A stretch of 64,000 nucleotides of DNA from Bacteroidaceae bacterium (GTDB lineage Bacteria > Bacteroidota > Bacteroidia > Bacteroidales > Bacteroidaceae): positions 1-64,000 of the forward strand of contig JAKSIP010000012.1 in NCBI GenBank assembly GCA_024398715.1. The letters run 5' to 3'. This document shows positions 14,332 through 33,858 of the stretch, in pieces. Each line of letters begins with the position of its first letter. The stretch's first letter is position 1. The notes under the pieces are model-generated. The model saw only the letters and a program-made list of their open reading frames with translations, did not search any database and was not told where the DNA came from. The position numbers were made by a program, and so were the translations under genes.

Positions 14332-15582
14332 CTACTCCACAGCCAACACCAAAGTGTCAACAAACCTTTTTACACACTTTTCCTTATCAAGTTCCGTCAT
14401 CAGATAATCCTTTCCGGATTTCCCTTTTCCTGCAATTTGAGAATCTGCTGCCATTTTGCGGATTGCTTCTTTCAATTCCTCCCTGCTGCCTGCCTCTGCC
14501 ACAATGCCACAGCCAGTCTTCTCTATAAGAGATGCCAATGCGCTGTCTTTGTCAAACGATGCAAGAACCGGCTTTTCCGCAGCCATATAGCTCCACGTCT
14601 TGCTCGGAACCGAATTATTGCCAACTCCCGGCTTGCTGATAATCAGGCCCACGTCACCCAAGCTGAACACATGCGCAATATCCTCATATGGCTGGAACGG
14701 AAGCAGAATCACATTACCAATATTTTCCTCCTTGATTCTTCTCTCCACATCGGCCTTGGCCGCACCATCGCCGATAACCACGAAACGTACATCCTTCAGT
14801 CCGTCCCTGATCTCTTTTGCCACATCAAGCAGCAAGTCCATATTCTGCGTATGGCCAATCGTGCCGCTGTAGCAGATGTAGAACTTGTCGCGTTCCAAGT
14901 CATATCTGTCAAAAAGCACATTATCCTTACGCTCTACAGGATAGATTCCATCAGTGTCAGCCCAGTTGGGGACTATGACTATCTTGCTTTCAGGCACTCC
15001 CTTAGCCATTATGTTGCGCTTGAAATCTTCGGAAATCACAATGATTCTGTCGGCATTGCGGTAGATGTAGTCTTCCATCCTGCGACCTAATTTCCAAAGG
15101 AGCGAACCTTGCCGGGTCATTCCCGTATTGACAAGAGAGTCCGGAAATATATCCTGAAGGTTATATACAAACGGAACCTTCCTACCATACCTGCGGCTGA
15201 GCCTTTTTGCCACCATTGCAGTGAGCATCCCCTGAGTCGGCGGCGTGCTGCTGCAGAGCATCAGGTCAATATCCTTTGCCCTGATTCCCTTGAAGTACTC
15301 AACTATGGTGCTTAGCAGGTACTTAAACGTTTTCTGGACGATGTTCGTTCCCTCCTTTATCATCGGGAACCGGTGGACAATGACGTGACCGTCGTGGAAC
15401 TCTTCGTATTTTATCTTCTTGTACTTGCGTCTCACCTCGTCGCTGACTCCGCGTGACGGCATCGGAGTATAATTGATGCAGACTATGCCTCTTCTGACAT
15501 ATTCCGCGTCAATATCCTCCGCCATCGCCGATGCGGCAACATTTTCGGGGTAACAGTATGCTCTGAGTCTGAGTATTTTCAT
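14332..15582 (-). CDS. Family 4 glycosyltransferase, WbuB-like
   Basis: A 416-residue GT-B enzyme similar in layout to WbuB/WcaI transferases: N-terminal LRAYCYPENVAAS, central PFVYNLQDIFPDS, then YSGTIGHTQNMDLLLDVA and PSKTWSYMAAEKPVLAS in the C-terminal half. WbuB relatives transfer N-acetylated sugars such as L-FucNAc, but that does not establish the donor here. Start and stop overlap or abut neighbouring transferase genes, with 4 bases shared with the upstream GT2 gene. Confidence 0.87.
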   Translation of the reverse strand: MKILRLRAYCYPENVAASAMAEDIDAEYVRRGIVCINYTPMPSRGVSDEVRRKYKKIKYEEFHDGHVIVHRFPMIKEGTNIVQKTFKYLLSTIVEYFKGIRAKDIDLMLCSSTPPTQGMLTAMVAKRLSRRYGRKVPFVYNLQDIFPDSLVNTGMTRQGSLLWKLGRRMEDYIYRNADRIIVISEDFKRNIMAKGVPESKIVIVPNWADTDGIYPVERKDNVLFDRYDLERDKFYICYSGTIGHTQNMDLLLDVAKEIRDGLKDVRFVVIGDGAAKADVERRIKEENIGNVILLPFQPYEDIAHVFSLGDVGLIISKPGVGNNSVPSKTWSYMAAEKPVLASFDKDSALASLIEKTGCGIVAEAGSREELKEAIRKMAADSQIAGKGKSGKDYLMTELDKEKCVKRFVDTLVLAVE

Positions 15583-16628
15583 CTATACTTTATTTTCCTT
15601 AAGGTGATGATGCCCATCGAGGCGGCATCGAGCCACAGGACATTGCCCAGAACGAAAGCGGGAAGATGGATGGAGGAATCGCCCAACTTGAAACGCGTCA
15701 AGCCGGTATGCCTGTCAAGATTTTCCTTGTGTTTTTTGAGAAACTGCCTGTTACGCCGGATTAAAGTGCTGTAACGTTTATGCTTTTCCAGTGTGTCCCC
15801 TCCATGGTAGATGATATCCATAACAACATTGCCTACCAGCCAATAATAGACGTTGCTCAGTTGTTCTCTAATGTATAATCCCAGCTTCCTGCTCTCCTCT
15901 ATCAGACTTTCCGTTATGATTTCAAAGCCTTCCTGAAGGGGTTTGTCCTTTCTTTGGACTCTTGAACCCTGACGCATTCTGTGGAACAGCAATGATTCCT
16001 TGCAAGTGCAGTAAACAGGACAGTGTAAAGCCAGATTGATGTTGAATTTCAATTCATTGCCGTTATATATGTTCGGCAGCTGGAATTTAACGCCCGAGTC
16101 TCTTACAAACTGCGTCCTGTACATTTTGTTCCAAGCATCGGACAAAAGCAGTTCACCGAACCAGGTATATAGCCCGGAAGCCAATGTTTCCCTTGTCACT
16201 GTCAGTTTTTCATACCCTCCGTACGGCAAATAGACAGTGCGCGCATCGTCTCTCCCGTCTGTAAAACAACTGATACCGCAGACAGATACATCCGCTTCAT
16301 TCTTGATTATTGCACCATATAGTTTCTCGACGAAATCCGCTGACACATAGTCATCAGCATCCAATGTCACGAAGTAAGTTCCCTTGCATACCTCCACCCC
16401 AAACTGTCGCGAGGCAGCCACACCGACGTTCTGTCTATGGCACACCTTCACCCTGTCATCTTTGAGATACTCATCACAAATGACAGGTGAGCCATCCGTG
16501 GAGCCGTCGTCAATGACGAGTATCTCCAGATTGCGGTATGTCTGATTGATAACGCTGTCAAGCGTCTGCCTGACGTATTTTTCAACGTTATAAACAGGCA
16601 CAATCACGGAAACAAGGTCATTTCCCAT
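15579..16628 (-). CDS. Family 2 glycosyltransferase
   Basis: This 349-residue GT2 enzyme has a textbook GT-A domain: VSVIVPVYNVEKYVRQTLDS at the N-terminus, VIDDGSTDGS at about residues 39-48 and the metal-binding DADD at 90-93. The C-terminal 130 residues are helical and basic, as in many capsule transferases. Its first codons overlap the end of the SDR gene by 11 bases, and its end overlaps the WbuB-like gene by 4, so translation is coupled through this block. Confidence 0.87.
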   Translation of the reverse strand: MGNDLVSVIVPVYNVEKYVRQTLDSVINQTYRNLEILVIDDGSTDGSPVICDEYLKDDRVKVCHRQNVGVAASRQFGVEVCKGTYFVTLDADDYVSADFVEKLYGAIIKNEADVSVCGISCFTDGRDDARTVYLPYGGYEKLTVTRETLASGLYTWFGELLLSDAWNKMYRTQFVRDSGVKFQLPNIYNGNELKFNINLALHCPVYCTCKESLLFHRMRQGSRVQRKDKPLQEGFEIITESLIEESRKLGLYIREQLSNVYYWLVGNVVMDIIYHGGDTLEKHKRYSTLIRRNRQFLKKHKENLDRHTGLTRFKLGDSSIHLPAFVLGNVLWLDAASMGIITLRKIKYR

Positions 16629-17532
16629 ATATCTTCTTCATCCACTCGACATTGCGGCGGATACCTTCCTCGATGGAAACAGTGGTTTTCAGACCCAGAT
16701 CACGAACAGCCTTGCTGTTATCCACCTTCTTGTCAATAGTTGTCTGAGGCTCATGCTCCTTGTATGTCACAAGGCTCTCAGGCTTTCCTGAATATTTCAG
16801 CACGAGGTCCGACAAGGTCTTGATGTCGTAATACTCTGTGGAAGCAATGTTATACACCTCGCCCGGCTTGAAGTTCTCACAGATGGTGGCAAGTGCATTG
16901 ACACAGTCGGTAATGTAGGTGTTGGTTCTGTGATGTCCAATATAGACAGGGAAAGGAATGTCATGAAGTGCACGATAGGTAAATGTGCAGATTACACTTC
17001 TGTACGGGCTGTAATACTCTCCCGGGCCGTATGTGTTGAACAGTCTGACGCGCACGGTTTCAGTACCGAACATCAGTTGGGAATTGTGTATCTGCAATTC
17101 GTTGACCCACTTGGAGATGGCGTAATCGTTCATCTGCTTGATAGGAACCTTATCCATAACATCTTCATACATAATCCCGTCATAGTCACCATATACCTCT
17201 GAACTGGAGAAATGAATCAGGCGGAACCTGTATTTTTCCTGCAGGCGGATGACATTCTTTGTTCCGATTCCGTTGGAATGCCATACCTTTTCATAATAGT
17301 CCTCGCCGTTCCATCTGCCGAACTCGGCGGCCAGGTTATAGACGTAATCAAAGGTGTGCTCCTGGAAAATCCTTTCAAGTTGGCGGTATTCTCCAATATC
17401 GCATCTGATATACAGCGGATGATGGTTGTGCATCAGATCGCATACCCATACCTCGTGACCTCTTTCTCTCAGTTCACGAACCAGTTCTGTTCCCACGACA
17501 CCCAGTCCGCCTGTAACCAAAATCTTGCTCAT
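16618..17532 (-). CDS. NAD-dependent nucleotide-sugar epimerase/dehydratase (SDR)
   Basis: A 304-residue extended SDR enzyme. The cofactor loop is TGGLGVVG at residues 7-14; catalytic residues are likely Ser110/Ser111 and the YxxxK pair Tyr137-Lys141 (DYAISK). The sequence resembles UDP-glucose/GlcNAc 4-epimerase-type proteins, but reductase or dehydratase activity cannot be excluded. It would supply one activated sugar of the repeat. It is the only SDR in the locus; no obvious 4,6-dehydratase accompanies the DegT aminotransferase. Confidence 0.82.
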   Translation of the reverse strand: MSKILVTGGLGVVGTELVRELRERGHEVWVCDLMHNHHPLYIRCDIGEYRQLERIFQEHTFDYVYNLAAEFGRWNGEDYYEKVWHSNGIGTKNVIRLQEKYRFRLIHFSSSEVYGDYDGIMYEDVMDKVPIKQMNDYAISKWVNELQIHNSQLMFGTETVRVRLFNTYGPGEYYSPYRSVICTFTYRALHDIPFPVYIGHHRTNTYITDCVNALATICENFKPGEVYNIASTEYYDIKTLSDLVLKYSGKPESLVTYKEHEPQTTIDKKVDNSKAVRDLGLKTTVSIEEGIRRNVEWMKKIYGK

Positions 17533-17556
17533 AACTATATTATCATTATTTGATTT

Positions 17557-18192
17557 TCAATCTTCCATCATTTTAATCACTTTGAATCCTTCGGCGTATT
17601 CCACCTCATTGGCATAACCCCAGAGATGATTCCTTTCAAGATTGGTCCCGAAAAGGCGGTTCATCCTGTTGTGCTCAGTTCCATAACATGCCAGAGCCTT
17701 TTTCTTCTGTCCGATGAAGTCTGTGATGTCAACAAAGAACGTCGGACGGAATTCATTGTCCATGATATACCCGTTGCTCTGATACTGCAGGATATTCTTG
17801 CAGTGACGCGCAGCAGCAAGGCATATTCTGCAGGCTTCCACGTGGTCCTGATGTGCATCACCATTGAAATGGATGATGACCGTGTCAATATTGTAGTCAA
17901 AGATTATGCTTTCCACCCGCTGCATCTGCTCCTGACCGAACATCAGTTTGCCGTGGGGTGCAGGGTCGGTGTTTTCAATTTCCACCATGCCTATAGCTTT
18001 TGCCGCCTGTTCGCTCTGCCTTTTCGAGTCTTCAAATTTAACGTGGATATTCCGCTGAGGGAATATGGTCTCATTGTCCGTCAGGGTGTATTTGTACACT
18101 TTCTTACCCTGGCTCACCCATTTTGCCGCAGATCCGCCAGCTCCCAGCTCCGCATCGTCGAAATGCGCTCCGATAATTAGAATATTCTTCAT
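17557..18192 (-). CDS. PIG-L family zinc deacetylase
   Basis: The 211-residue protein has the PIG-L/LmbE metal motifs: AHFDDAELG at residues 9-17 (usual form AHPDDxExG, here Pro is Phe) and HFNGDAHQDHVEAC in the middle, with the usual HxxH zinc ligands. PIG-L enzymes remove N-acetyl groups from GlcNAc-type sugars. In this setting it could expose a free amine on the capsule repeat or on a precursor, giving an acceptor for acyl or aminoacyl groups; that link is inferred from the neighbours. Confidence 0.85.
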   Translation of the reverse strand: MKNILIIGAHFDDAELGAGGSAAKWVSQGKKVYKYTLTDNETIFPQRNIHVKFEDSKRQSEQAAKAIGMVEIENTDPAPHGKLMFGQEQMQRVESIIFDYNIDTVIIHFNGDAHQDHVEACRICLAAARHCKNILQYQSNGYIMDNEFRPTFFVDITDFIGQKKKALACYGTEHNRMNRLFGTNLERNHLWGYANEVEYAEGFKVIKMMED

Positions 18193-18216
18193 TGTATATT
18201 GTTGTTTGTATTTTAT

Positions 18217-20796
18217 TTATGAACGGTACGCCTTTCTGTCCAGTTTTCCGTTATAGGTTTTCTTCAGTTCACCAACAACAGTGATTTTCTTCGGAACACG
18301 GTATGCTTCCACCTTATCTTTGATAAAGTTCATCAAAGCTTCGGAAGAAAACTCCGGCTGTTTCGGTACAGCAAGCAGTTCAAGATACTCATTGTTATGC
18401 TTGTCAAAGGATTTGATCAGGATACACTCCTGCACCAAGCCGCTTTCCTCGGCAACTGCCTCGGTTTCAATCGGGGATATTTTGTACCCGCCTACGTTGA
18501 TGACATCGTCGGCTCTGCCTGCAAAATGCAATGCCCCGTTTTCATCAAAGTAACCCAAATCGGCCCCGGTTAAATAGCCATCGTGAAAAGCCGCATTTGT
18601 CTGTTCAGCATCATGGTAATAACCCATCATCGTACAGGGGCTTTTCACCATGATCCGTCCGACCTCTTTGCCAAGCGAATGATTATACTCAGGCTCATAC
18701 AGCCGGACATCTACACTTTCACAAGGATACCCGAGCGACACAGGTTCATTGATCTTGTACTTAGTGAAACAAATCGGAAAACACTCTGTGCAACCGTACA
18801 GACTGAATAATTCCGTATTGGGAAACGCACGCAAAAATTCATCCACCGTATTTTTATTTGCAGGGGCGCTTCCTATTATTACAGATTCCAGTTGATTTTT
18901 GATTGTTTCGCTTTCTGTCATCATCAGCAGCACTTTTAATGCAGCAGGAGTACAGTGGAGACAGCTGTTTTTATTGTCAACAATGCTACTCATCACTTTA
19001 TTCAAATCGTTCCACCCGGGCATAGCGACAAATGTCTGACCGTTCGCTAATTCCATATGTAAATCAAAGATTGCTCCGGTATGATTCATAGGGAAAGAAT
19101 TTCCGCGCACTTCATCCTCTTTTATTTCTACAGTCTTTGCATGACAATACGCAGCATGAGCCGTATTGCTGTGACTGTGAACAACGCCTTTCGATTTCCC
19201 TGTCGTTCCTGTGGTAAAGAGGATCTGAGCCGGTTTGTTCAGGGCGGGAAAATTCAGCGAAAAGATTGGTATATCGGAAACGATATTTGTTTTATCGTCC
19301 AGTTGCTCGAAACTGATGCACTTCTTACCACAATTCAAATAGTTGCAGATAATGAGTTGAGCATTTGTTTCCCTTGCTATTTCAACAACTCTTTCCTTGC
19401 CGATTTCATCTTCAACAGGAACTGGAACGGCAGACAACAAATGGCAGGCATAGAAGGCCGCAATATATCGGACATCCCTTATCGCCTGTAAAACAATATT
19501 GTCTCCAGCTTTAACGCCAAGCCGTCTGTAGGTTTCGCTATATGAATAAATCAATTTGCACAGTTCAAGATATGTTGTTTCTGAGTTCTCCGTAATAATT
19601 GCCACTTTATCGGGAGTTTTTACCGAATTTTCAAATATCCGCTGAATAACCGTTTTCTCTGTATCTTCAATGTGAAGCTCTAACGGTTTTTTCGCCTGAG
19701 CGGAGCTATTCTCTTGCTTTTCGGCAGTTTCCGCCGTATTCGCAGACTTTTTGTTCGTTGTGAGTTTGTCCATCAATGCGGCAATGGTCTCAACATTGTA
19801 AAACCCCTTTCCGTTTACTTCCCTAATAGGAATTTTTACTGAGAATTGCTCCTCTAATTCCGCAATAAGTGAAAGTAGCGAAAGCGAGTCAATTACTTTG
19901 CTTCCTATCAAGTCTTCCCCCTTGAAAATACTGTCATCATATCCAAGAGCGGAAAATACGCTGCACACCTTATCGTATATTTCTTTCGGTGCGCTTGTTA
20001 TTCCATTCTCAGCGCAAGGCTCTACATCACCGTAATATTTCCGGAGTTCTGCGGCTTTGGTTTCTTCTGAATAAAACCAATACACGTCGGAAAGGATTTC
20101 TTTATCAATCACCGGTGCTACCATCGCTCTGGGAGAAACTTCTCCGCTAACCACAGTACTGTTTCCGATGATTGCGCCGTCTCCGATTACGGATCCCTGA
20201 AAAACACTTGCTTTCTCTCCAATCCACACATGCTTTCCGATGACCACAGGAGCGGAGGAAACAGTCATATTACTGGGATTTGTCCCGGACGAATGTGCCG
20301 TAGAATCCCTGACAGTCGAATATACGCTGATACCGCTGCCTTGGCCTATGGATATGCTATTGCGGCAAATGATTCGGACTCCTTCACTGATTTTATTTGA
20401 TCCATCAAATTTCAGTACGCCATCGATTTGAACACAGTAACCGGCACAGAAAGTGACTTCACCGTTGATAATGAGTTTTGATTTGCCTGGCATATACAAA
20501 TTGCCTCTGACAAGCACATTTTCCAGCAATGGCTTATTTAGAATCAGTGTATCATTTAATATAATCTCCGCATCCTTACCAAGAAATATTTTCCCTGGTC
20601 TGAACGGAATGATATATGCTCCCTTTGCACGGTGAACCCGTTTTGAGAGAAAATTGTACTTTATAAACTGAAAAACATTCAGTTTTAATGCCGTCCTAAT
20701 ACGATAATATATATACTCTGTTCGATTCATAGCGTTCAAAAAAGAATTCTCTTGCTGTATAATTGATAGTAACTCTTCTCCAAGATTTGATATCAT
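18217..20796 (-). CDS. Three-domain protein: LbH acyltransferase, acyl carrier, adenylation ligase
   Basis: An 859-residue fusion with three recognisable parts. Residues 60-245 are a left-handed beta-helix of hexapeptide repeats with a possible catalytic His168 (RDSTAHSS). Residues about 265-345 are an acyl carrier domain with the phosphopantetheine serine Ser304 in VIDSLSLLSL. After a low-complexity linker (346-372), residues 373-859 are an ANL adenylating enzyme: TTGTTGKSKG at 528-537, YGCTE at 667-671, GRADDVINVGGYKISPIETE at 760-779 and the catalytic Lys851 in NGKLDR. The simplest mechanism is activation of a carboxylic acid, loading on the carrier arm and transfer to a sugar by the LbH domain. 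The acid (amino, hydroxy or fatty) cannot be read from the sequence. It is relatively AT-rich and lies between a PIG-L gene and an unknown gene. Confidence 0.88.
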   Translation of the reverse strand: MISNLGEELLSIIQQENSFLNAMNRTEYIYYRIRTALKLNVFQFIKYNFLSKRVHRAKGAYIIPFRPGKIFLGKDAEIILNDTLILNKPLLENVLVRGNLYMPGKSKLIINGEVTFCAGYCVQIDGVLKFDGSNKISEGVRIICRNSISIGQGSGISVYSTVRDSTAHSSGTNPSNMTVSSAPVVIGKHVWIGEKASVFQGSVIGDGAIIGNSTVVSGEVSPRAMVAPVIDKEILSDVYWFYSEETKAAELRKYYGDVEPCAENGITSAPKEIYDKVCSVFSALGYDDSIFKGEDLIGSKVIDSLSLLSLIAELEEQFSVKIPIREVNGKGFYNVETIAALMDKLTTNKKSANTAETAEKQENSSAQAKKPLELHIEDTEKTVIQRIFENSVKTPDKVAIITENSETTYLELCKLIYSYSETYRRLGVKAGDNIVLQAIRDVRYIAAFYACHLLSAVPVPVEDEIGKERVVEIARETNAQLIICNYLNCGKKCISFEQLDDKTNIVSDIPIFSLNFPALNKPAQILFTTGTTGKSKGVVHSHSNTAHAAYCHAKTVEIKEDEVRGNSFPMNHTGAIFDLHMELANGQTFVAMPGWNDLNKVMSSIVDNKNSCLHCTPAALKVLLMMTESETIKNQLESVIIGSAPANKNTVDEFLRAFPNTELFSLYGCTECFPICFTKYKINEPVSLGYPCESVDVRLYEPEYNHSLGKEVGRIMVKSPCTMMGYYHDAEQTNAAFHDGYLTGADLGYFDENGALHFAGRADDVINVGGYKISPIETEAVAEESGLVQECILIKSFDKHNNEYLELLAVPKQPEFSSEALMNFIKDKVEAYRVPKKITVVGELKKTYNGKLDRKAYRS

Positions 20797-20808
20797 CTAA
20801 AAAGTGTT

Positions 20809-21504
20809 TTAATACTGCATTTCGATAGCCGATACATCACAGTTGATTTCTCCGTTTCTGTTGTAGAAAATCATAATCATCTTGTTGTCCTTTACATTTC
20901 CTATCAGATTCTTTCTGTCACGTAACGAAAGAACCGGCTTTTTATCGACTAAAAGTGAATAATGATTCCCGTCAACCACAACCGAAATTTTGTGCTTTTC
21001 GTTAAGTGGAACAGAGCATCTCCTTTGTCTTACAAATTTGTAAAATCTGCTATTTTTAATCACTTCAAAAACAGCGGTTTTATTGTTGCGAATCATAAAG
21101 CGATAGCGTTCTCTCAAACTGTCACAATGAAAACTGACCTGTATCTCATCAAGTCCTTTATGATCTTCAATGTCAAAAGAAAAGGAACATCTATCCTTTA
21201 CATCCCGATAAAAGAAACACATCCAGTTTTCCTTTTTTAACCGGCTGTATAGATGCATACCCGAATCAATATATGAAATGCGGGAGATATCGCTCTTCTC
21301 ATCAATGTCCCAAGGTGTGACGCCAGTTTCTTCGTGTTTGATAAAAGAAGAAATATAAGTACTGTTATCGTCTCTGTAAACAAATTCTGGCGATAGAATG
21401 ATATTGTGATACTCACGGGCCGAATAACAGACGTCACGGAAATTCAGTTTTACCCGATATTCAGCAAGCCTTCGTTTTATACCGTCTATTATTCTCTTAA
21501 GCAT
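20809..21504 (-). CDS. Unknown capsule-locus protein, beta-rich
   Basis: I do not recognise this 231-residue protein. It has no signal peptide or transmembrane helix; the first 25 residues are basic and helical (KRIIDGIKRRLAEYRVK), the rest alternates short hydrophobic and polar stretches as in a beta-sandwich, with NGEINCDVSAIEM near the end. The pattern of HKISVVVDGNHYSLLVDK recalls LamG/concanavalin-like or DUF1080-like folds, which is only an impression. Its start overlaps the pyruvyl transferase end by 8 bases and its stop is 12 bases before the LbH-ACP-ligase gene, so it probably works with them. Confidence 0.7.
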   Translation of the reverse strand: MLKRIIDGIKRRLAEYRVKLNFRDVCYSAREYHNIILSPEFVYRDDNSTYISSFIKHEETGVTPWDIDEKSDISRISYIDSGMHLYSRLKKENWMCFFYRDVKDRCSFSFDIEDHKGLDEIQVSFHCDSLRERYRFMIRNNKTAVFEVIKNSRFYKFVRQRRCSVPLNEKHKISVVVDGNHYSLLVDKKPVLSLRDRKNLIGNVKDNKMIMIFYNRNGEINCDVSAIEMQY

Positions 21505-22642
21505 TTTCTCCTCTTAATTTTTCAAGAAAAACATCAAAGTTTTTTCTTTGACATAGAACAAAATCTCTGTAATCCGTTTTCTCTGCCGCAAGTGCAAATG
21601 TCTTTTTCCAATCAAGCGTCATAGCATCCTTTGCTTCAACATAACGATTTTCAAGATCTGTATTGCATAGAAGTTCCTGCAACTTACTTTTCTTATCTTC
21701 CCTTGCCACTGCAATAAATGGAGTATTATTTGTTATACTGAAACACACGCCATGGAATAGAGAAGAAACAACCATATCCGCTTTTGAAATGAGCAATCTC
21801 CATTCAAACGGATCAAGGTCTGAAAGGTTGATGCACTTCGGATTCTTCAATACCGTTGAAATCACATTGTATTCGTCTTTGACCTGAGAAATAATGCTTT
21901 CGGCGGTTTTTCGATGGACATCGGCTAAAACTAGGGTTTTCTTGTCCGGGTCAAGCCTGCATTTCTTTTTCAGCAATTCCTGCACCGTAATCTCACTCTC
22001 GGGAAAATCATACAGGAATGACGGATCGCAGGAAAGCATCATCTTTTCTTCTGGAATCCCTTCCTTTCGCACGGCGTTATATGTGAGCTCATCTCTTACG
22101 GAAATGAATTCATAGTCTTTTAAATATCCGTTAAGTTTTAAGTGCTGGTCTTCCGGCAAAGTGCCAAAGTCCATTCTTGCAGAAACGGCATACGAAAACT
22201 TTCTGCATGCTAAATCGCCCGGCAGGAAATACGGATTCGGGAAACCTCTTATTGGTTTTATTTTCCATATCTCATCACTGCCGGAAATGATTACATCGTA
22301 TTTTCCTTTTACGAACACCGTAAAAGCGTCCATGTCATCCGAAATCAGTGAATCCTCCGATAACAAACCTTTTGCCTTCTCATAGCCTCTTTGAAAGGAT
22401 TCGGAAATGTCCAGAACCACTACAGAATCCTTCCCCAGCAATGTTTTGACAAAATGTTTCAATCTGCTTTTGACCGTATTCCCAGTCAACTGCTGATACA
22501 GATTCCGTACAGACAGCATATCATAGTCGATAATCTCGGCGGAAATATCTTTTTCAGCATTCATCCTTTTGCAAAGACAAACAGCTTGGAGGAATGCTCC
22601 GTAGTTCAATGCCCTATGATATGTCAATATGCCGACTTTCAT
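21497..22642 (-). CDS. Polysaccharide pyruvyl transferase family protein
   Basis: A 381-residue protein of the CsaB/ExoV family, which transfers pyruvate from phosphoenolpyruvate to sugars as a ketal, or in some members acts as a glycosyltransferase-like enzyme. The start MKVGILTYHRALNYGAFLQA (a GNYGA-type motif), the central ISGSDEIWK and the later VSSLFHGVCFSI (family SxRxHG-type region) support this. It would give the capsule negative charge. The preceding glycosyltransferase ends 2 bases away. AT content is high, as in the next two genes. Confidence 0.83.
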   Translation of the reverse strand: MKVGILTYHRALNYGAFLQAVCLCKRMNAEKDISAEIIDYDMLSVRNLYQQLTGNTVKSRLKHFVKTLLGKDSVVVLDISESFQRGYEKAKGLLSEDSLISDDMDAFTVFVKGKYDVIISGSDEIWKIKPIRGFPNPYFLPGDLACRKFSYAVSARMDFGTLPEDQHLKLNGYLKDYEFISVRDELTYNAVRKEGIPEEKMMLSCDPSFLYDFPESEITVQELLKKKCRLDPDKKTLVLADVHRKTAESIISQVKDEYNVISTVLKNPKCINLSDLDPFEWRLLISKADMVVSSLFHGVCFSITNNTPFIAVAREDKKSKLQELLCNTDLENRYVEAKDAMTLDWKKTFALAAEKTDYRDFVLCQRKNFDVFLEKLRGENA

Positions 22643-22644
22643 AC

Positions 22645-23805
22645 TTAGAGTTCTTTCAGAATCTTCTCTATCAACGACTCCATCGTGAAGTCACTGTATA
22701 ATTCCTTTACCGTGTCGAATGGAATTATTTTCTTAACCTTTGCTTCGAGAATGAACTGCGCCACCCCATTCACTCTCTGGTCTGTCAGTTCTTCATTCTG
22801 ATATATGAAGCATTTGTCCGGATAGCGTTCCAGATATTTCTTTGCGCAACAGTTCTCAATTTTCTGGATATGCAGAATAGGTTTGCCGCTGGAGGCAAAG
22901 TCAATGGCCTTGCTCGGGCACATATTGGCGGAGTCGTGACCCATACTTACCAGCACATCACAGTCCAGCATAGCATTGTGCGCCTCTTCCTGGCTGATGC
23001 GCTCATGGCAGATGTAACCGTCGCCAAGCTTTTCCTGCCACAGATTTACGGTCTCACGGTAATCACACACACTTCCTATGGTATATAAACGGATCTTTGC
23101 CCGTCTTTCAACTTTCTCAAACAACCTGAAGATGAAGTCCGTATTCTCATTGCCAAAATAGAAATCGCCCAAGAATACACAGTTGATATAGGAATCATCG
23201 AACTCAATAACCCTCTTCGTCCTGTCCGGATTGATGGGCCTGATACACGGAAGATTGAAATAGACAATCTTGTCCTCTATTGGCGAGCCGACATAATCAT
23301 CGCTGAATTCCGTGAGGAAGAATATTTTTGTCGCATCCTGCAGTGTTTCCACCTCCCGTCGGATATACTCCTGCTTCTGTTCTTCCGTGATATGCGGATT
23401 GAAAGCATACGGGTCATACGACATCGGGAACCACTTGCATTTTCTTCCCTTTCGGGCTTGATGGGCCAGGAAATTCACCTCGAAAGCAAGCGCTACGGAA
23501 AAGACATAGTCATAATCCTTTGAGTCAAGCAATTTCCCCAGTCCTGACAGATGACTCTCCGTAATTGTATGGGTCTCTGAAGGATTCACGGGAGTATAAT
23601 TCATTTCTGCCCCGACTTCAGGCTTGATAATCTTTACTCCATTATATTCATCCGGATAAGTGAAATGGTTACCCGAAATCTCAGCAGGATAAACATCCAC
23701 GCTGTATCCCAGCTGTGCAAGCGCCTCGGCCGTCCTGCGTCCCAGTGTGGTCGTTGCACTGGAATCAGGATAATAAGTATCTGTAACAAACAGTATATGT
23801 TTCAT
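22645..23805 (-). CDS. GT-B glycosyltransferase
   Basis: This 386-residue protein starts MKHILFVTDTYYPDSSATT, a form common in GT4-like capsule transferases, and in the C-terminal half carries DCDVLVSMGHDSANMCPSKAI followed by GKPILHI, the donor-binding region. It lies directly after the AAA ATPase gene (15-base gap) and 2 bases before the pyruvyl transferase. Sugar and linkage are unknown. Confidence 0.8.
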   Translation of the reverse strand: MKHILFVTDTYYPDSSATTTLGRRTAEALAQLGYSVDVYPAEISGNHFTYPDEYNGVKIIKPEVGAEMNYTPVNPSETHTITESHLSGLGKLLDSKDYDYVFSVALAFEVNFLAHQARKGRKCKWFPMSYDPYAFNPHITEEQKQEYIRREVETLQDATKIFFLTEFSDDYVGSPIEDKIVYFNLPCIRPINPDRTKRVIEFDDSYINCVFLGDFYFGNENTDFIFRLFEKVERRAKIRLYTIGSVCDYRETVNLWQEKLGDGYICHERISQEEAHNAMLDCDVLVSMGHDSANMCPSKAIDFASSGKPILHIQKIENCCAKKYLERYPDKCFIYQNEELTDQRVNGVAQFILEAKVKKIIPFDTVKELYSDFTMESLIEKILKEL

Positions 23806-23820
23806 TATACCATAAATAAA

Positions 23821-25233
23821 TCAAAACAAATCATCCAGTGTAAGTTCTTTCTGTGCCACAGAAGAATGTGTGTTGCACTTGAGGCCCTTGGTTGTAATGA
23901 GCACAACCTGCGTCCACTGCCTGTCGGGATTCTCGCTATGGAACGTTGCCTCACGGAGCTCAATCTTTTCTGTCTCGGCCTTGGTCATCACATACGGCAA
24001 GCGCGAATACTTCATCTCGCAAATGTTCACCACACCATCGCTGCGATCAATCACCATATCTATCTGCACTGCCGGAGTGGATTTGCTGCTTCTCCACGAG
24101 TAGAACTCCGAATGTATCCCGCTCACGCCCAGAGCTGCAATTACCTTGCGGAAATGCCACATACACACCCGCTCGAACGCCAGCCCATAAAAGGTATTCT
24201 GTGCAGGGTCGTTCAGCAGGTTGCTCCAATAGTGATTGTCGGTAGTGCGCCTCTTGCCAAACTGATGGTAAAACAGTGTGAAGAAATCAATCAGCTGATA
24301 GATGCCTCCGTTCTCGTTCGTGCCGTTGTTATACCTGCGGATAAAGTCGCAATGCACCAAATCATCCAGCATATCGCCGAAATGGCCGTTGTTGTGCACT
24401 CCAAGAGCCCCAGCAAGCTCAGCACGAGTCATTCCCTGCCGGATGCCGGCAAGCTTCTCAATAATAGCTATATACCCGTCCGGATGGGTGTACATCGAAC
24501 GGTACAGAGCCTTGTATTCGTTCTTCAGCAAGGCATCGTCCGAGAAGAACATACGGTCAATATTCTCTGCCACACTCTCGTTGAAGTCAAGCAGACTCAG
24601 ATAATACGGAATACCGCCCAGTACACTATATGTCTGAAGGATGGAGAGGCGGTCCCACCGACCCCTGCGCGAGCGGCAATACTTCTCAGTCGTGGCAAGA
24701 TCGAAAGGGTGCAGCGGAATATCGTGCGTAAGCCTCTTATGCAACCCGCCCTTGGAGTGTATCAGATTCTTTATCATCCAGCTGGTAGCCGACCCGCACA
24801 CCACAAACATAATATTGTCCATCCACGAAGCCGACCCGTTCCAAAAGAAATCCAGTGCCTTGATAAAGCCGCTGCCCTGAGTATCAAAGCAAGGCAGCTC
24901 ATCAAGAAACACCACCTGACGTGTGGTGCGCCTGCTGCACTTGCTCTTGAGCAATTCAGTGAGCATCTTGAACGCACTCATCCAGTTAGTAGCCTTGTCG
25001 CCCTTCCATCCGTAACGCTCAAGACCGATGTTGAAGGCCTCCAACTCCTGCTCGTAGGTACCCTCGATGATGCCTGTGGCGTAGAACACGAACTTGTCCT
25101 TGAACGCACTCCTGACAAGGAAAGTTTTTCCAACCCTCCTTCGCCCATATACAGCTACAAATTCAGGCCTGCCAGAGCCTGCAATTTCTGTAAGAGCGCG
25201 AATCTCAGATTCCCTACCTATAATTCTTTCCAT
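23821..25233 (-). CDS. AAA-type ATPase with C-terminal nuclease-like (DUF234) domain
   Basis: A 470-residue ATPase of the archaeal-ATPase/DUF234 family. Walker A is GRRRVGKT at residues 30-37, Walker B is VVFLDELPCFD near residue 110, and a winged-helix follows around residues 310-345. The C-terminal 100 residues show a PD-(D/E)XK-like pattern, with IDMVIDRSDG and ICEMKYS carrying the acidic residues and lysine. Such genes are widespread, often mobile or present in many copies in Bacteroidales, and have no known part in polysaccharide synthesis. It splits the capsule operon and has a 126-base AT-rich gap upstream that could hold its own promoter, although no strong -7 box is seen there. Function is unknown; defence or selfish-element roles are speculation. 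Confidence 0.82.
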   Translation of the reverse strand: MERIIGRESEIRALTEIAGSGRPEFVAVYGRRRVGKTFLVRSAFKDKFVFYATGIIEGTYEQELEAFNIGLERYGWKGDKATNWMSAFKMLTELLKSKCSRRTTRQVVFLDELPCFDTQGSGFIKALDFFWNGSASWMDNIMFVVCGSATSWMIKNLIHSKGGLHKRLTHDIPLHPFDLATTEKYCRSRRGRWDRLSILQTYSVLGGIPYYLSLLDFNESVAENIDRMFFSDDALLKNEYKALYRSMYTHPDGYIAIIEKLAGIRQGMTRAELAGALGVHNNGHFGDMLDDLVHCDFIRRYNNGTNENGGIYQLIDFFTLFYHQFGKRRTTDNHYWSNLLNDPAQNTFYGLAFERVCMWHFRKVIAALGVSGIHSEFYSWRSSKSTPAVQIDMVIDRSDGVVNICEMKYSRLPYVMTKAETEKIELREATFHSENPDRQWTQVVLITTKGLKCNTHSSVAQKELTLDDLF

Positions 25234-25359
25234 ATCTATTGATATTCAGTTATCTATATCCTATTGCGAATATACGGAATATCCCATGTTCCACTAAATT
25301 CATTCGGGCGAAAATATATGATTTTACAGCACTTTTCGCTAAAAGCAAATTACATATAA

Positions 25360-26583
25360 TCAAATATGATACACTCCAGGAAGATTAATCACATTAAAGC
25401 AGTCTAATACCACCTTACCTTTCAAACGCTCAACATTATCAAGAATATGACCATGCTTAACCATAATCACCACCATATCCACCCCATCAAGGAACTCATC
25501 GAAATCCAGCACCTGATTCTTCACAATCTCCTTATCGGTAAAGAAAGGATCAAAGCTCTTCAAAGGTCTGGCAAGATGTCTCTCCTGACATTCAAGCATC
25601 TGAAGGGTTGGACTCTCACGGACATCATCCACATTTTCCTTGTAGGTGATGCCGTAAAGACCCACACGACGGTCATCCGTAATGCCGTTCTCCTCCATAA
25701 TCTCATAGATGCGGTTGAGCACAAACTGAGGCTGGCTGTCATTGGTGCGCATACTCTCGTCAATGACTTTGGCAAGTGAAGGATAGTCGCCCACAAGGAA
25801 CCAAGGGTCAACACTGATGCAGTGGCCACCGACACCGGGACCAGGCTGAAGGATATTGACGCGGGGGTGCATGTTACAGATCTTAATGATCTCATACACG
25901 TCCATATTGTCGTGACGGCAGATGCGGGCAAGCTCGTTGGCAAATGCGATGTTGACTGCACGGAATGTGTTCTCCACGACCTTTGTCATCTCGGCCGTGC
26001 GGATGTCAGTAACGACTATCTCGCCTTGGCAGAAGGATGCATAATACTTCTTCACCTTCTCGCCAATCTCCTTGTTATCGGCTCCGATGGTGCGATTGTT
26101 GTGGAGCAGTTCATAGACCATATTGCCTGGAATGATGCGCTCGGGAGCATGAACCAAGTTGATGTCCTCTCCAATCTTGAAACCGTTAGCTTCGATTACG
26201 GGACGGATGAACTTGTCGATTGTGCCAGGACTTACAGTTGACTCGATTACCACTGTGGCATCCTTGGGGCAGACTTTCATCACTTCCTTGATGGCCGCCA
26301 CCACATAGCAGGCATCGACTTTTTTTGAGAATTTGTCGTATGGAGTGGGAACGGAGACGATGTACATATCCGTCTTCTGATATTCGGTGGTGAACTTGAT
26401 GCCGGCCTTTACCGCCTCGGCAAAGAGTTCGTCGAGACCGTCTTCCTTAAAGGTTGTCTTGCCTGCGTTCAGAGTTGCAACAAGTTCCTTATTGTAGTCT
26501 GTTCCTATTACTTCCACTCCGTGACTTGCCATCATAAGGGCTGTCGGAAGACCGATATAACCAAGTCCTATTACGTTTATCAT
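25360..26583 (-). CDS. wecC: UDP-N-acetyl-D-mannosaminuronate dehydrogenase
   Basis: The 407-residue enzyme oxidises UDP-ManNAc twice to UDP-ManNAcA, giving a sugar carboxylate. The N-terminal NAD loop is GLGYIG at residues 6-11 and the catalytic cysteine is Cys255 in GPGVGGHCISVDP. Length and motifs match WecC rather than UDP-glucose dehydrogenase. The gene overlaps wecB by 4 bases, so the two steps are coupled. The uronic acid it makes is the most likely attachment point for the ATP-grasp ligases encoded nearby. Confidence 0.95.
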   Translation of the reverse strand: MINVIGLGYIGLPTALMMASHGVEVIGTDYNKELVATLNAGKTTFKEDGLDELFAEAVKAGIKFTTEYQKTDMYIVSVPTPYDKFSKKVDACYVVAAIKEVMKVCPKDATVVIESTVSPGTIDKFIRPVIEANGFKIGEDINLVHAPERIIPGNMVYELLHNNRTIGADNKEIGEKVKKYYASFCQGEIVVTDIRTAEMTKVVENTFRAVNIAFANELARICRHDNMDVYEIIKICNMHPRVNILQPGPGVGGHCISVDPWFLVGDYPSLAKVIDESMRTNDSQPQFVLNRIYEIMEENGITDDRRVGLYGITYKENVDDVRESPTLQMLECQERHLARPLKSFDPFFTDKEIVKNQVLDFDEFLDGVDMVVIMVKHGHILDNVERLKGKVVLDCFNVINLPGVYHI

Positions 26584-27764
26584 CTTAATGCATTTACTAT
26601 TCTTTCACAAGCATGTCCGTCTCCGTAAGGGTTGACAGCCCTGCTCATCCGGTTGTAATATTTTTCATTCTCAAGCAGTCTTGACACCTCTGAGATAATC
26701 ATATCGTGGTCGGTACCCACAAGTTTGACAGTCCCGGCTTCCAACGCCTCGGGACGCTCGGTGGTATCACGCATCACAAGCACAGGTTTACCGAGGCTCG
26801 GAGCCTCTTCCTGGATTCCGCCCGAATCAGTAAGAACGATTGTGGATTTTTCCACCAGATAGATAAATTCTATGTACTGGAGCGGCTCGATGAAGAAGAA
26901 GTTTCTTCCCAACGATGACGATGACGATAACGATGACTCGTGATTGATGGCAGCCTCTCCGAACACTTCGGCAATCGGTTTGCGAACGTTAGGGTTGAGG
27001 TGCATTGGATAGACGAAATCCACGTCTGGATATTTTTCGCTGAGGTCTTTCATTGCTGTCACCATGCTGATGAAGCCGTCTCCAAAATTCTCTCTGCGGT
27101 GGCCTGTGATTAAAACAAGCTTACGTTTGCCATCCAACCTTGTTACGTCATATCCGGCTGCATTGAGAATCTGCCTCTGTTCTTCGACAAGAGCTTTATC
27201 GTTCTTCAGTTTATCAACCACAATGTGGAGGGCATCGATGACGGTATTGCCTGTAATGAAAATCTTTCCGTGAACATTCTCCTCCTTCAGATTCTGCGCA
27301 CCGAGAACCGTAGGGCAGAAATTGTAATCCATAATGCGGTCCGTCACCTGACGGTTCATTTCCTCCGGCCAGGGGCTGAGCATTTTATAGGTACGGAGTC
27401 CTGCCTCAACATGGCCAAGCGGTATTTGGGCATAGAATGCTGCCAAAGCTCCTGCCATAGAGGTCGTAGTATCCCCATGAACCAAAACAACATCAGGTCT
27501 GCACTCTTTGAACACATAACGAAGTCCAGTAAGCACCCGACACGTCACATCCGTCAGATCCTGTCCCTGCTTCATGATGTTCAGGTCGAAGTCTGGCTTC
27601 ACCTCAAATATCTTCAACACCTGATCCAACATCTCACGATGCTGTCCAGTAACACACACTACAGTCTCGAAATCCTCGGGATACTTCCGGAACTCCAGGA
27701 CCAGCGGACACATCTTGATAGCCTCGGGACGTGTGCCGAACACCAGCATTACCTTCTTCTTCAT
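26580..27764 (-). CDS. wecB: UDP-N-acetylglucosamine 2-epimerase (non-hydrolysing)
   Basis: A 394-residue WecB/MnaA homologue converting UDP-GlcNAc to UDP-ManNAc. Key motifs are FGTRPEAIKM at residues 9-18, HGDTT at 96-100, HVEAGLRT at 118-125, GHRREN at 221-226 and TDSGGIQEE at 312-320. An insertion of about 11 residues rich in serine (276-286, ESSLSSSSSLG) interrupts the loop before the EPLQYIEF segment and is encoded by a hexanucleotide repeat; the frame is kept. Coupled by 4-base overlaps to the upstream ATP-grasp gene and to wecC. Confidence 0.95.
   Translation of the reverse strand: MKKKVMLVFGTRPEAIKMCPLVLEFRKYPEDFETVVCVTGQHREMLDQVLKIFEVKPDFDLNIMKQGQDLTDVTCRVLTGLRYVFKECRPDVVLVHGDTTTSMAGALAAFYAQIPLGHVEAGLRTYKMLSPWPEEMNRQVTDRIMDYNFCPTVLGAQNLKEENVHGKIFITGNTVIDALHIVVDKLKNDKALVEEQRQILNAAGYDVTRLDGKRKLVLITGHRRENFGDGFISMVTAMKDLSEKYPDVDFVYPMHLNPNVRKPIAEVFGEAAINHESSLSSSSSLGRNFFFIEPLQYIEFIYLVEKSTIVLTDSGGIQEEAPSLGKPVLVMRDTTERPEALEAGTVKLVGTDHDMIISEVSRLLENEKYYNRMSRAVNPYGDGHACERIVNALR
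26913..26936. repeat. Hexanucleotide tandem repeat (CGATGA)x4 inside wecB
   Basis: Four consecutive CGATGA units at 26913-26936, the third reading CGATAA, encode the serine-rich loop of WecB on the minus strand. Gain or loss of units would change the loop by two residues at a time without shifting the frame. Confidence 0.85.
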
Positions 27765-28867
27765 TTTTGCTTTATCAGCTTTTTCGCAATTCCGGCAAAA
27801 TAGTCGGAATACTGTCCGAACAGCGGGCCTGTAGTCAACTGTGAGTGATACATTCCTATTCCTCTAAGATTCCACTCGAAAACAATCGGCTTATTATTTT
27901 TATCAATGGTAATGTCCCAGCCTATAATCCCGAGCATCGGCATACTTTCATGCGCTTCTAACGCCAGAGTCAATGCTTCTTTGTACGAAGGCACTTGAAC
28001 GCCACCGAATGTAAAACCGTTCGGCAGAGTCTGTATAGGCTTTGCATTCTCAAAATATCCGGTATCCGCCAACTTTCCATCATCATCAATTCCGATAAGA
28101 ACCACACCCACTCCGGGAGCCGTATTCCTGTTGCACGCAACCGCATCGGTCGTATTGGTCAGAAGCATACCGGACATCAGTTCTGCCTTGCCATTCACTA
28201 TTGCGGTAACTATCCTCATAGCTGCTACACTATGAGAATTCATCCTGTCAAATTCATCGCATTGGGCAATAACCTCCTGTGCCAGATAATTCCTGGGGTA
28301 TGTTGAAAGGACTTCATCCACTGCTTTTTCGTCAGAAACCATTCGGAGATTTTTTCCTTCTCCCGATACCAAGGATGGCTTGACTATAAGGGGAAGATGT
28401 TCGACCATGATTTTTCTCGCGTCCTCAGGACTGATATGACGATAGTCATTGTCAAGGAACCAGCCGTTCACATTCCTGACGTAGGCATGAGGGAAAGGAA
28501 GTGATGGCTGATGACGTTCAAAATAATTCTTGTCATCCCAAGCCAGGATCAATTTCCTGTCCGCAAGACCTGGATCCAGATACAATCTGTAAATCTTTTC
28601 AGGAACATAACGGACATCGAACTCGCCTTTTACATTCAGCATAATCTCGTGCGTCATGAAGTCGCTTTTTACCGGATGTTCAAGTCCCCAGTATTCAGCT
28701 ATCTCTTTCTTCTGCTCCTTTGTAAGAGTTTTCCAATTCGGATAATTGCACTTTGCCGCGTTCAGTTGACTTGTAGAATAGATTCTTGCAAATTTCTTTC
28801 TGAAAGAATCGTGTGAAAATGTCTCAAACCAGTTGAATAACCTATAACCTAATGCATACGGATCCAT
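27761..28867 (-). CDS. Sugar-transfer-associated ATP-grasp protein (copy 1)
   Basis: This 368-residue protein belongs to the ATP-grasp family often linked with capsule sugar transferases. ATP-grasp motifs include LPLIVKPSLVSGEGKN (lysine and glycine-rich loop), YLAQEVIAQCDEF (adenine contact) and the late metal-binding IVFEWNLRGIGMYH. These enzymes probably ligate an amine to a carboxylate of the growing glycan, but no reaction has been assigned. It is a paralogue of the next gene, with the same N-terminal LTxEQKK and KYxDxRYxP-like segments. Overlaps wecB by 4 bases. Confidence 0.8.
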   Translation of the reverse strand: MDPYALGYRLFNWFETFSHDSFRKKFARIYSTSQLNAAKCNYPNWKTLTKEQKKEIAEYWGLEHPVKSDFMTHEIMLNVKGEFDVRYVPEKIYRLYLDPGLADRKLILAWDDKNYFERHQPSLPFPHAYVRNVNGWFLDNDYRHISPEDARKIMVEHLPLIVKPSLVSGEGKNLRMVSDEKAVDEVLSTYPRNYLAQEVIAQCDEFDRMNSHSVAAMRIVTAIVNGKAELMSGMLLTNTTDAVACNRNTAPGVGVVLIGIDDDGKLADTGYFENAKPIQTLPNGFTFGGVQVPSYKEALTLALEAHESMPMLGIIGWDITIDKNNKPIVFEWNLRGIGMYHSQLTTGPLFGQYSDYFAGIAKKLIKQK

Positions 28868-28870
28868 TTA

Positions 28871-29962
28871 TTATTTCCTCCCAAAAACTTCATTTAATAC
28901 TCTTTCTGTCAAATCCCCAAAGAACGGGCCGTGTGCAAATTGATTGGGAATTATGCCACCTTTGCGCATATTAGCTTCAATCAACACAATATTTCCATCT
29001 TCATCAACAGAGAAATCCCAACCGACCAATCTAAAGTTGCCAATATACTGCGCTGCCTTTTTTGCTGTATCAAGCATTTTACCAAACGAAGGGATTCTTA
29101 CTTCATTCAGAAACATTCCCTGCGGATGTCTGTCTGTTGTTTGATTGGAACATTCGTTTAAAAAAGCCCGATTCATCAATTCACCATTCTCCTTGATTCC
29201 TGCGACGATACTTGAATTAGCACAGAAATTATCCGTGCGATTATTATTTACCCCTACTTTCAGCGATGCAAGCAGAATATGCACTCCGTCTTCCATCATC
29301 AATGTGAATATTCTGATTGTATTGACAGACTTAGGATGCATTTTGGCAAGTTCGTGATGTTGCTTGAATATATCCTGAATTATCAGATTCTTCTCTCTCT
29401 TGTCGCACAGCACTGTTTTTAGCTCTTCAATATCAGCCTTTGTGTCATAAAACTTGATATCTCTGCCGCCACCGCTTTCCTGTGAAGGTTTGACAATCAC
29501 CTCGGGTCTTATAACCAACAAGGATTCCGCCTTTTCGATATCTATCTGGCGGTAATTTTCGTCAAAGAGCAAACCTCCGATCTTTCTGACAACGGTTTTC
29601 GGTTGCTTTATGTCAGGGAATATCAGGGAATAATAATTCTTGTCGTTGAACCCATATCCTAATTTCCTATTATTGAAATATTGGTCAATCTTTGTGTATT
29701 GCAGATCATTAGGGATATATCGTGGGTCAAACTTTCCGTTTATGAAAGAATAGAACCTTATCCAGTCCGTATCAATCTTGCAATACGGTTTCCAGAACTC
29801 CCTTACGGCTTTCTTCTGTTCCGAAGTGAGTTTAGGCATGTGCCTGACATACTTTTTCAATGTACGCCTTTCCTGGAAAGTCTGAATTGCATTTGCCGCC
29901 ATTGTCTCAATGCCGTCAAAGAACATGAAATACAATGCTCTTGCTTTTTTATTTACAGCCAT
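28871..29962 (-). CDS. Sugar-transfer-associated ATP-grasp protein (copy 2)
   Basis: A 363-residue paralogue of the neighbouring ATP-grasp gene, with the same plan: an N-terminal helical region with LTSEQKKAVREFW, ATP-binding EVIVKPSQESGGGRD and metal site IVLIEANMRKGGI. I start it at the ATG at 29962, 4 bases after the stop of the phosphoglycosyl transferase; the longer frame from 30040 would run back into that gene. Two adjacent diverged copies suggest two successive or alternative ligations, for example two different amines. The substrates are unknown. Confidence 0.78.
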   Translation of the reverse strand: MAVNKKARALYFMFFDGIETMAANAIQTFQERRTLKKYVRHMPKLTSEQKKAVREFWKPYCKIDTDWIRFYSFINGKFDPRYIPNDLQYTKIDQYFNNRKLGYGFNDKNYYSLIFPDIKQPKTVVRKIGGLLFDENYRQIDIEKAESLLVIRPEVIVKPSQESGGGRDIKFYDTKADIEELKTVLCDKREKNLIIQDIFKQHHELAKMHPKSVNTIRIFTLMMEDGVHILLASLKVGVNNNRTDNFCANSSIVAGIKENGELMNRAFLNECSNQTTDRHPQGMFLNEVRIPSFGKMLDTAKKAAQYIGNFRLVGWDFSVDEDGNIVLIEANMRKGGIIPNQFAHGPFFGDLTERVLNEVFGRK

Positions 29963-32498: not shown

Positions 32499-33092
32499 TC
32501 ATACTACCCTGCACCATTCCAGCGGAATGCCGTCAACAGCCACAGCTACCAAACCGGCCAGTTGCAGCACTACCTTGCGGTCACGGCGTATGCGCAACAA
32601 CTTGCCACGCACACCATTTAACGGGCCGTTCACAATCTCAACAGGAGTACCTTTTTCAACAGTCGCCAACGGATTATCCAGATACAGTACACTATCCTCC
32701 ATTTCTGCAGTGACACGGATAAAATCTTCCATTTCCCTGTCACGCACCACCATAGGCAGGCCTGTACTCCTGTCCATCATATACCGCAACGAACAACCTT
32801 CTTCCACCTTACGCTTGTAATTGTCCAGAAAATCGCGCGAACTGTGCACAAAAATCAGGTTGTGTACAGCCGGCACATAACGTTTTTCATCCGGTTCCCT
32901 TTCACAAACCATAGGAATAAAGCATTCCACTCCTGCCTCCTGCAAAAGTATTCTTGCCTTGAGTTCGCGGCTGTATGTGACTCTCATAACGAACCACCTG
33001 ATATCAGATGATGGCACTACAGGGGGACACCCGCCTGCCTGAGCAGAGGATTGTGATAATGATTCAAAAGTAAGATTCTCAGCCATTTCCAT
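32499..33092 (-). CDS. UpxY-type NusG-like transcription antiterminator
   Basis: A 197-residue NusG paralogue. The NGN domain starts at WFVMRVTYSRELKARILL and the KOW domain is at VEKGTPVEIVNGPLNGVRGK near residue 150. UpxY proteins of Bacteroides load on RNA polymerase in the leader of their own capsule operon and prevent premature termination, which fits its place as first gene of a roughly 30 kb operon. I use the ATG at 33092 (33086 also possible); the frame extends upstream to 33311 but that part overlaps the divergent gene and its promoter. No upxZ gene follows. Confidence 0.9.
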   Translation of the reverse strand: MEMAENLTFESLSQSSAQAGGCPPVVPSSDIRWFVMRVTYSRELKARILLQEAGVECFIPMVCEREPDEKRYVPAVHNLIFVHSSRDFLDNYKRKVEEGCSLRYMMDRSTGLPMVVRDREMEDFIRVTAEMEDSVLYLDNPLATVEKGTPVEIVNGPLNGVRGKLLRIRRDRKVVLQLAGLVAVAVDGIPLEWCRVV

Positions 33093-33147
33093 ATTGCTAT
33101 CCAGCGAATTGGGAAACACTAACTTATTTCTGACATACTTTGCTAAG

Positions 33148-33178
33148 CAAAAATAAAGATTATTTACTACTTTTGCAA
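33148..33178 (-). promoter_or_regulatory. Promoter of the capsule operon
   Basis: On the minus strand a TATTTTTG (33155-33148) lies 20 nt from a TTG at 33178-33176. The predicted start near 33141 gives a leader of about 50 nt before the UpxY ATG at 33092. A palindrome TTTGCTAAGCAAA at 33139-33151 covers the edge of the -7 box and could be an operator. No long inverted repeats bound the promoter, so it does not look invertible. Confidence 0.6.
33168..33175 (+). promoter_or_regulatory. -7 element of the divergent promoter for the SGNH hydrolase operon
   Basis: TACTTTTG at 33168-33175 is a full match to the Bacteroidetes -7 box and lies 20 nt before the ATG at 33196. The nearest TTTG (33139-33142) is 25 nt upstream, longer than usual. 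It overlaps the -33 region of the capsule promoter on the other strand, so the two promoters may compete. Confidence 0.55.
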
Positions 33179-33195
33179 GTAAAGAACTAAGACAT

Positions 33196-33858
33196 ATGAG
33201 AAAAATCATTTCAATTGCATTGGCTGTAGCAATGATTGTTTCCGTTGCTAACGCACAGACAAAAAAGGTTTCCATTTTAGGAGACTCGTATTCAACATTC
33301 AAAGGTGCCAATCCCGACGGTTATGCACCATTCTATCCCGATGCCAACAACGATGTCAAGGAGATAAGCCAGACATGGTGGAGTCTGTACAACGAAGCTA
33401 TGGGGTACACTCTTGAAGTAAACGATTCCTGGGGTGGGACAACAATATGCAACAGCGGATATTTCCATATGAATACCGCAAACTCATCATTCAACTCCCG
33501 TTTGTGGAAACTTGGCAATCCAGATATCATATTCGTATTCGGCGGTACCAACGATGCTTGGGCAAAAGCTCCTCTTGGCGAATACAAATATTCCAAAATA
33601 TCAAAAGAAGACTGCAAGTCGCTCCGTCCGGCTTTGGCATACATGCTCAATTCTCTCAAAAGCATCTACCCCAAGGCCAAAATTTACACAATACTGAACT
33701 CCGAACTGGATGAGGGCGTCAACGCATCTTTCCGCAAAGTCTGCAAACACTGCGGCGTGCAGCTCATTGAGCTCCATGATATTGAGAAACAAAACGGGCA
33801 TCCGTCTGTCAACGGCATGAAAGCTATCTGTGACCAACTTCTGGAGGCAATCCGGTAA
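33196..33858 (+). CDS. Secreted SGNH/GDSL hydrolase
   Basis: A 220-residue exported esterase-like protein with a signal peptide ending near residue 21 (ANA). SGNH blocks are present: GDSYS at residues 29-33 (nucleophile Ser), the Gly of block II in NDSWGGTT, FVFGGTND (block III) and HPSVNGM near the C-terminus supplying the catalytic His. Such enzymes deacylate sugars or lipids. It heads a plus-strand operon with the MBL-fold and MATE genes and is divergent from the capsule operon, so removal of acyl groups from glycans is possible but unproven. Confidence 0.87.
   Translation: MRKIISIALAVAMIVSVANAQTKKVSILGDSYSTFKGANPDGYAPFYPDANNDVKEISQTWWSLYNEAMGYTLEVNDSWGGTTICNSGYFHMNTANSSFNSRLWKLGNPDIIFVFGGTNDAWAKAPLGEYKYSKISKEDCKSLRPALAYMLNSLKSIYPKAKIYTILNSELDEGVNASFRKVCKHCGVQLIELHDIEKQNGHPSVNGMKAICDQLLEAIR

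Follow-up and report, generated by a model that had tools for sequence, protein, structure and literature searches.

Does a protein that joins an acyltransferase, an acyl carrier and an adenylating ligase decorate a bacterial capsule on its own, and with which acid? This question is raised by a gene found in 64,000 nucleotides of DNA from a Bacteroidaceae bacterium (contig JAKSIP010000012.1); this whole stretch is called the window here.

Capsule locus and fusion gene

The gene and the relevant parts of its locus are the following:

16618..17532, minus strand, NAD-dependent sugar epimerase/dehydratase (PF01370, 6e-40)
17557..18192, minus strand, PIG-L-type N-deacetylase, next gene downstream after a 24 bp gap (PF02585, 4.2e-13; BshB1-like, below the BshB1 cut-off)
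18217..20796, minus strand, fusion of a left-handed beta-helix (LbH) domain, a carrier and a ligase (called length 859 aa, ATG start, ORF intact)
20809..21504, minus strand, 231-aa protein directly upstream of the fusion gene (no Pfam or NCBIfam match)
21497..22642, minus strand, polysaccharide pyruvyl transferase (PF04230, 1.1e-29)
22645..23805, minus strand, capsule-locus protein, glycosyltransferase-like by eye and shared with the related loci L059 and L060 (no Pfam or NCBIfam match)
32499..33311, minus strand, NusG/UpxY-type antiterminator heading the capsule locus (PF02357, 5.2e-8)

Between the UpxY-type antiterminator at the locus head and the fusion gene, an aminotransferase, LbH, ATP-grasp genes, a UDP-GlcNAc 2-epimerase, a UDP-sugar dehydrogenase and the pyruvyl transferase are encoded, and the fusion gene is followed by the PIG-L deacetylase, the epimerase, glycosyltransferases and then Wzx, Wzy, Wzz and CpsB. 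The presence of UpxY, Wzx, Wzy, Wzz and glycosyltransferases bears out the capsule setting given in an earlier note on this DNA. Within the locus, long open frames were observed on both strands at 23665-25242 (plus) and 23821-25233 (minus), the minus frame coding for an ATPase_2-type AAA protein. An Rfam scan of 15000-34000 returned no match.

From the N- to the C-terminus, the fusion protein holds an LbH acyltransferase, a carrier and an acyl-adenylating ligase. The 859-residue protein with three catalytic parts that the earlier note had described is thereby confirmed, and the motif and the two residues it had named are all intact: TTGTTGKSKG at residues 528-537, Ser304 within IDSLSLL and Lys851 within TYNGKLDRK. 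The called start is probably too early. Homology to orthologues begins at Met23 (nt 20730), nucleotide homology to L059 and L060 stops at nt 20731, and the first 22 residues of the window protein are absent from its closest orthologues; since these start at Met23, this is the probable true start and the protein may be 837 aa long. A chimeric assembly was ruled out by full-length orthologues in two other MAGs. A plasmid search (tblastn) returned no record spanning 80% of the fusion protein, and a defence-system search with the protein gave no match.

The ligase resembles acyl-CoA synthetases

The following features of the ligase were located:

18220..19656, minus strand, acyl-adenylating ligase domain, residues 381-859 (PF00501, PF13193; nearest structures MenE and FACL13)
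19186..19215, minus strand, P-loop motif TTGTTGKSKG, residues 528-537
19078..19080, minus strand, Thr573, where amino-acid adenylation domains have the amine-binding Asp235 (from the spacing to a conserved LxxG and from relatives)
18244..18246, minus strand, Lys851, catalytic A10 lysine in TYNGKLDRK

AMP-binding (PF00501) was matched by Pfam at residues 389-727 with an E-value of 1.9e-52, and AMP-binding_C (PF13193) at 777-851 with 2.1e-6. The best families for the ligase are acyl-CoA synthetases, with 253 bits for PRK06187 and 184 for MenE versus 135 for DltA, and against the DltA model TIGR01734 it reached 128.4 bits, well below the cut-off of 559.85. MenE and FACL13 are also the nearest structures; in the VIA-align comparison, the full model was covered at residues 375-845. 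LgrA, the top PDB match, was set aside because its score is the sum of two domains, and MenE and malonyl-CoA synthetase score higher singly.

The position of GrsA Asp235, which binds the substrate amine, is occupied by Thr573 in the window; in relatives, the residue is Thr, Val, Ser or Ala. Of the two HMMER alignments to LgrA, one places a later Asp at this position, so we regard the sequence evidence for the absence of the amine-binding Asp as strong but not final. D-Ala or another amino acid is therefore unlikely, and the substrate is most likely a small free carboxylic acid lacking an alpha-amino group. Among the neighbouring genes read, none for the synthesis of a special acid was found.

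Carrier and LbH domains

N-terminal to the ligase, these features were assigned:

19762..20004, minus strand, acyl carrier domain, residues ~265-345 (PF00550, helical in the model)
19885..19887, minus strand, Ser304, predicted phosphopantetheine attachment site in IDSLSLL (conserved; begins helix 304-318 in the model)
20092..20664, minus strand, LbH acyltransferase domain, residues ~45-235 (profile A4 matches OatWY and NeuO)
20224..20226, minus strand, Trp191, partner of the putative catalytic His (NeuO Trp171, OatWY Trp145; invariant in A4)
20293..20295, minus strand, His168, putative catalytic base (NeuO His147, OatWY His121; at least 90% conserved in A4)

The Pfam match to PP-binding (PF00550) at residues 302-341 scores 21.1 bits and barely exceeds the curated cut-off (20.8). 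In the AlphaFold model, the carrier is helical with a helix starting at Ser304, the pLDDT of the block being 72-93 across residues 271-350. The earlier reading depended on a carrier match at residues 265-345 and on an unmutated Ser304, and both were found, the first as this Pfam match together with the helical model and the second as an intact serine within a DSL-type motif before the helix. The serine is present in 11/11 full-length fused sequences, that of the window included. The nearest NCBIfam carriers are AsbD and DltC, both scoring below their cut-offs. Ser304 would be phosphopantetheinylated, and the genome encodes a phosphopantetheinyl transferase.

For the LbH domain, Pfam run on the single sequence matched Hexapep at residues 184-218 with 23.4 bits, below the cut-off of 27. 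This weak call was settled by profile A4, built from ten LbH sequences (the window and relatives), which matches OatWY (2wlc) at 2.9e-26 and NeuO (3jqy) at 1.4e-24. The nearest NCBIfam model is WbbJ, with 58 bits and below its cut-off. Beta-helix strands appear at low confidence both in the full-length model and in that of the LbH alone. The latter (pLDDT 67) gave a best E of 0.25 and nothing significant in Foldseek; since this model is too weak for such a search, it is the sequence profiles that support the LbH assignment. Catalysis by NeuO uses His147 and Trp171, and known LbH enzymes with this Trp take acetyl-CoA (PMC3046976).

The fusion recurs and has unfused counterparts

Fused proteins were searched for in contigs of the family, order, genus and phylum and in GTDB. 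In gut Bacteroidales and Clostridia, this gave ten further full-length fusions, or nine with the near-identical pair L059 and L060 counted once; these two come from horse-faeces MAGs and show 68% to the window. A second LbH type is present in L062 to L065 and L078, L065 being Prevotella sp. P6B1; the others are L061 and L093 from Clostridia and L128, which has a third LbH type. L098 (746 aa) was counted at first and then dropped, its N-terminal part being no LbH-carrier pair. The record of L059 is titled 'archaeon', and its capsule genes are near-identical to those of a Bacteroidales MAG, so it is probably a mislabelled bin. Within the genus, the fusion was found in 2/37 genomes, which fits an accessory gene of the capsule. 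The statement in the earlier note that such parts come separately elsewhere needs correction, since the fusion recurs and Pls/PosA proteins likewise combine A, T and LbH, though arranged differently.

Unfused versions of the parts also lie close together. In L081 (Acetatifactor), separate LbH, ACP and ligase genes are found inside 3.6 kb, and in L103 an ACP gene adjoins that of an LbH of the second type, with a ligase gene 3 kb on. At L085:5474-7285 and L131:8813-10627, a window-type LbH is fused to a 4Fe-4S/F420-hydrogenase-beta-like protein, with an AMP ligase adjacent or close by. At L062:4749-7814 and L064:4733-7788, the locus of the fused gene also has an unfused SDR-ligase-ACP-LbH cassette upstream of it; in both, a polysaccharide deacetylase then follows, and one locus holds two acyl cassettes. 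At L079:9983-12013, L100:9995-12037 and L098:2261-4330, the AMP ligase is extended at its C-terminus by ~180 residues, and Nitroreductase (PF00881) was matched by a single sequence of alignment A3, probably that of L079.

On a tree built from 103 ligase domains, the distribution of fused and unfused forms needs at least 3 label changes, so fusion or separation of the parts has happened several times. That they were repeatedly joined or kept together argues, from co-occurrence, for their action on one substrate.

A probable route from free acid to capsule sugar

Judging from sequence, we consider it probable that the fusion protein serves this Bacteroidales capsule locus as an acyl-decorating enzyme complete in itself, which activates, loads and transfers an acyl group. 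The C-terminal ligase would make acyl-AMP from a free carboxylic acid and ATP, and Ser304 would then receive the acyl group on its phosphopantetheine arm. At the N-terminus, the LbH, expected to be a trimer with His168 and Trp191 at the subunit interface, would take the acyl group from the arm and put it on a capsule sugar. Such an activate-hold-transfer logic within one protein had been proposed earlier, and it is backed by the adjoining unfused LbH, ACP and ligase genes of Clostridia, whereas we infer that transfer stays within the same polypeptide or trimer, and likewise the acid, the acceptor and the bond. Because the nearest LbH relatives are capsule O-acetyltransferases, a hydroxyl acceptor yielding an O-acyl ester is more likely than N-acylation.

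The alternative acceptor would be a sugar amine freed by the deacetylase encoded downstream: PIG-L would remove the N-acetyl group of an amino sugar in the capsule, and another acyl group would be added to the amine by the fusion protein, much as teicoplanin-type antibiotics undergo deacetylation and then re-acylation. The two genes are on the same strand and separated by 24 bp. Moreover, L059 and L060 keep 33 nt from the start of the PIG-L gene as a scar, followed by a transposase-like remnant, identified by eye (L060:12539-12730, L059:4760-4950). These loci have apparently lost the deacetylase, and the scar makes the pairing of PIG-L and fusion older than the window genome. However, their fusion gene is intact, so PIG-L is dispensable for keeping it, and no PIG-L gene is present in any other fused locus examined. 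As the kinship of the LbH with O-acetyltransferases also speaks against an N-acyl exchange, we regard it as unlikely.

Acetyl-CoA is the donor of known capsule O-acetyltransferases, and the LbH retains the catalytic Trp typical of acetyl-CoA users; since the known enzymes bearing this Trp use acetyl-CoA, the domain might accept this donor in place of the acyl group held on the carrier. It would then be an ordinary O-acetyltransferase, the carrier-ligase would serve another enzyme and the fusion would merely co-locate them. This fits poorly with carrier-ligase units being joined to three different LbH types and with the clustering of separate genes for the parts, and the scanned locus genes contain no second acyltransferase such as an MBOAT, except for a small LbH at 30541-31152 within the capsule locus. 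We judge this explanation quite improbable. Even more doubtful is an aminoacyl decoration as in teichoic acid D-alanylation by the DltA-DltC logic, for which we see very little chance. DltC and DltA do occur among the more distant family matches, and the ATP-grasp ligase genes of the locus may attach amino acids, but the replacement of the amine-binding Asp by Thr573 and the higher scores of acyl-CoA synthetases argue against an amino acid. The D-alanylation parallel of the earlier note can thus be kept for the activate-hold-transfer logic and probably not for the substrate.

If the preferred reading, activation and transfer by one protein, is true, its own acid-activating and acid-holding parts would extend capsule chemistry past acetate. 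Through the ligase core, a single enzyme assay could reveal the acid. Capsule acyl groups affect immune recognition and phage binding.

The core of the ligase differs from that of L060

Comparison of the window with L060 delimited one segment of the ligase:

18562..19170, minus strand, exchanged A-core segment, residues 543-745 (segmentation and a blastn gap at 18562-19171)

DNA identity to L060 is 99% over residues 366-458, 78% over 459-542, 49% over 543-745 and 92% over 746-859. In the protein, the first ligase part is 98% identical, the core 54 and 35% and the A-sub domain 97%. A comparable dip was absent from ten control pairs of the second LbH type and from the Clostridial pair, and the idea of the core as a general swap hot spot is unsupported, as these other pairs lack it. 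The window and L060 cores still match one another better than any other (46%); hence the donor was a related gene outside the sample.

The pattern is that of a subdomain swap, in which the substrate-choosing core of the ligase was replaced between kept flanks, in the one event seen; the swap would presumably change the acid used. This is more surprising than the fusion itself. The same is known from A-core swaps in NRPS, in which the substrate-choosing core is replaced while the C-terminal A-sub domain and the linkers are kept (PMC8097286); those act in peptide assembly lines, whereas here a capsule-locus enzyme is concerned. More tentatively, with somewhat more doubt than confidence, we propose that gut bacteria vary their capsule acyl groups via an exchangeable LbH-carrier-ligase module, in which recombination replaces the acid-choosing core, as in NRPS, and carrier, hinge and neighbours stay. 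The window and L060 would be a natural pair for studying a change of capsule specificity by subdomain exchange.

Comparison with known systems

A search of open-access literature turned up neither a capsule enzyme that has these parts nor a characterised protein of this domain order; the earlier note likewise knew of no such capsule enzyme. Among single enzymes, OatWY and NeuO share with the fusion protein the LbH fold by profile, the His/Trp pair and the capsule setting; they are stand-alone acetyl-CoA users without carrier or ligase, whereas the fusion protein has both. On the ligase side, the exosortase-A-associated acyl-CoA ligase (TIGR03098) is likewise an AMP-forming ligase of a surface-polysaccharide locus, but the window ligase, with 166 bits, is below the family cut-off of 592 bits. 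By its family definition, the TIGR03098 ligase is a separate protein.

The closest known architecture is that of the epsilon-poly-L-lysine and delta-poly-L-ornithine synthetases Pls and PosA (TIGR02353), which also hold adenylation, carrier and LbH parts in one polypeptide. They differ in their A-T-LbH order, six transmembrane helices, three LbH units per chain, amino-acid substrate and polymer product. In PosA, three beta-helices are predicted, packed as in sugar-nucleotide acyltransferases (PMC10522769). The window protein has the order LbH-T-A, and its LbH matches TIGR02353 only faintly, with 16.9 bits against a cut-off of 423.1. In the DltA-DltC system, a ligase and a carrier also hold an activated acid for a cell-surface polymer, but they are separate proteins with an amino-acid pocket and with an MBOAT (DltB) in place of the LbH, and the window ligase and carrier score far below the Dlt family cut-offs. 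The fusion protein would work like Dlt and Pls/PosA, yet it is a member of neither.
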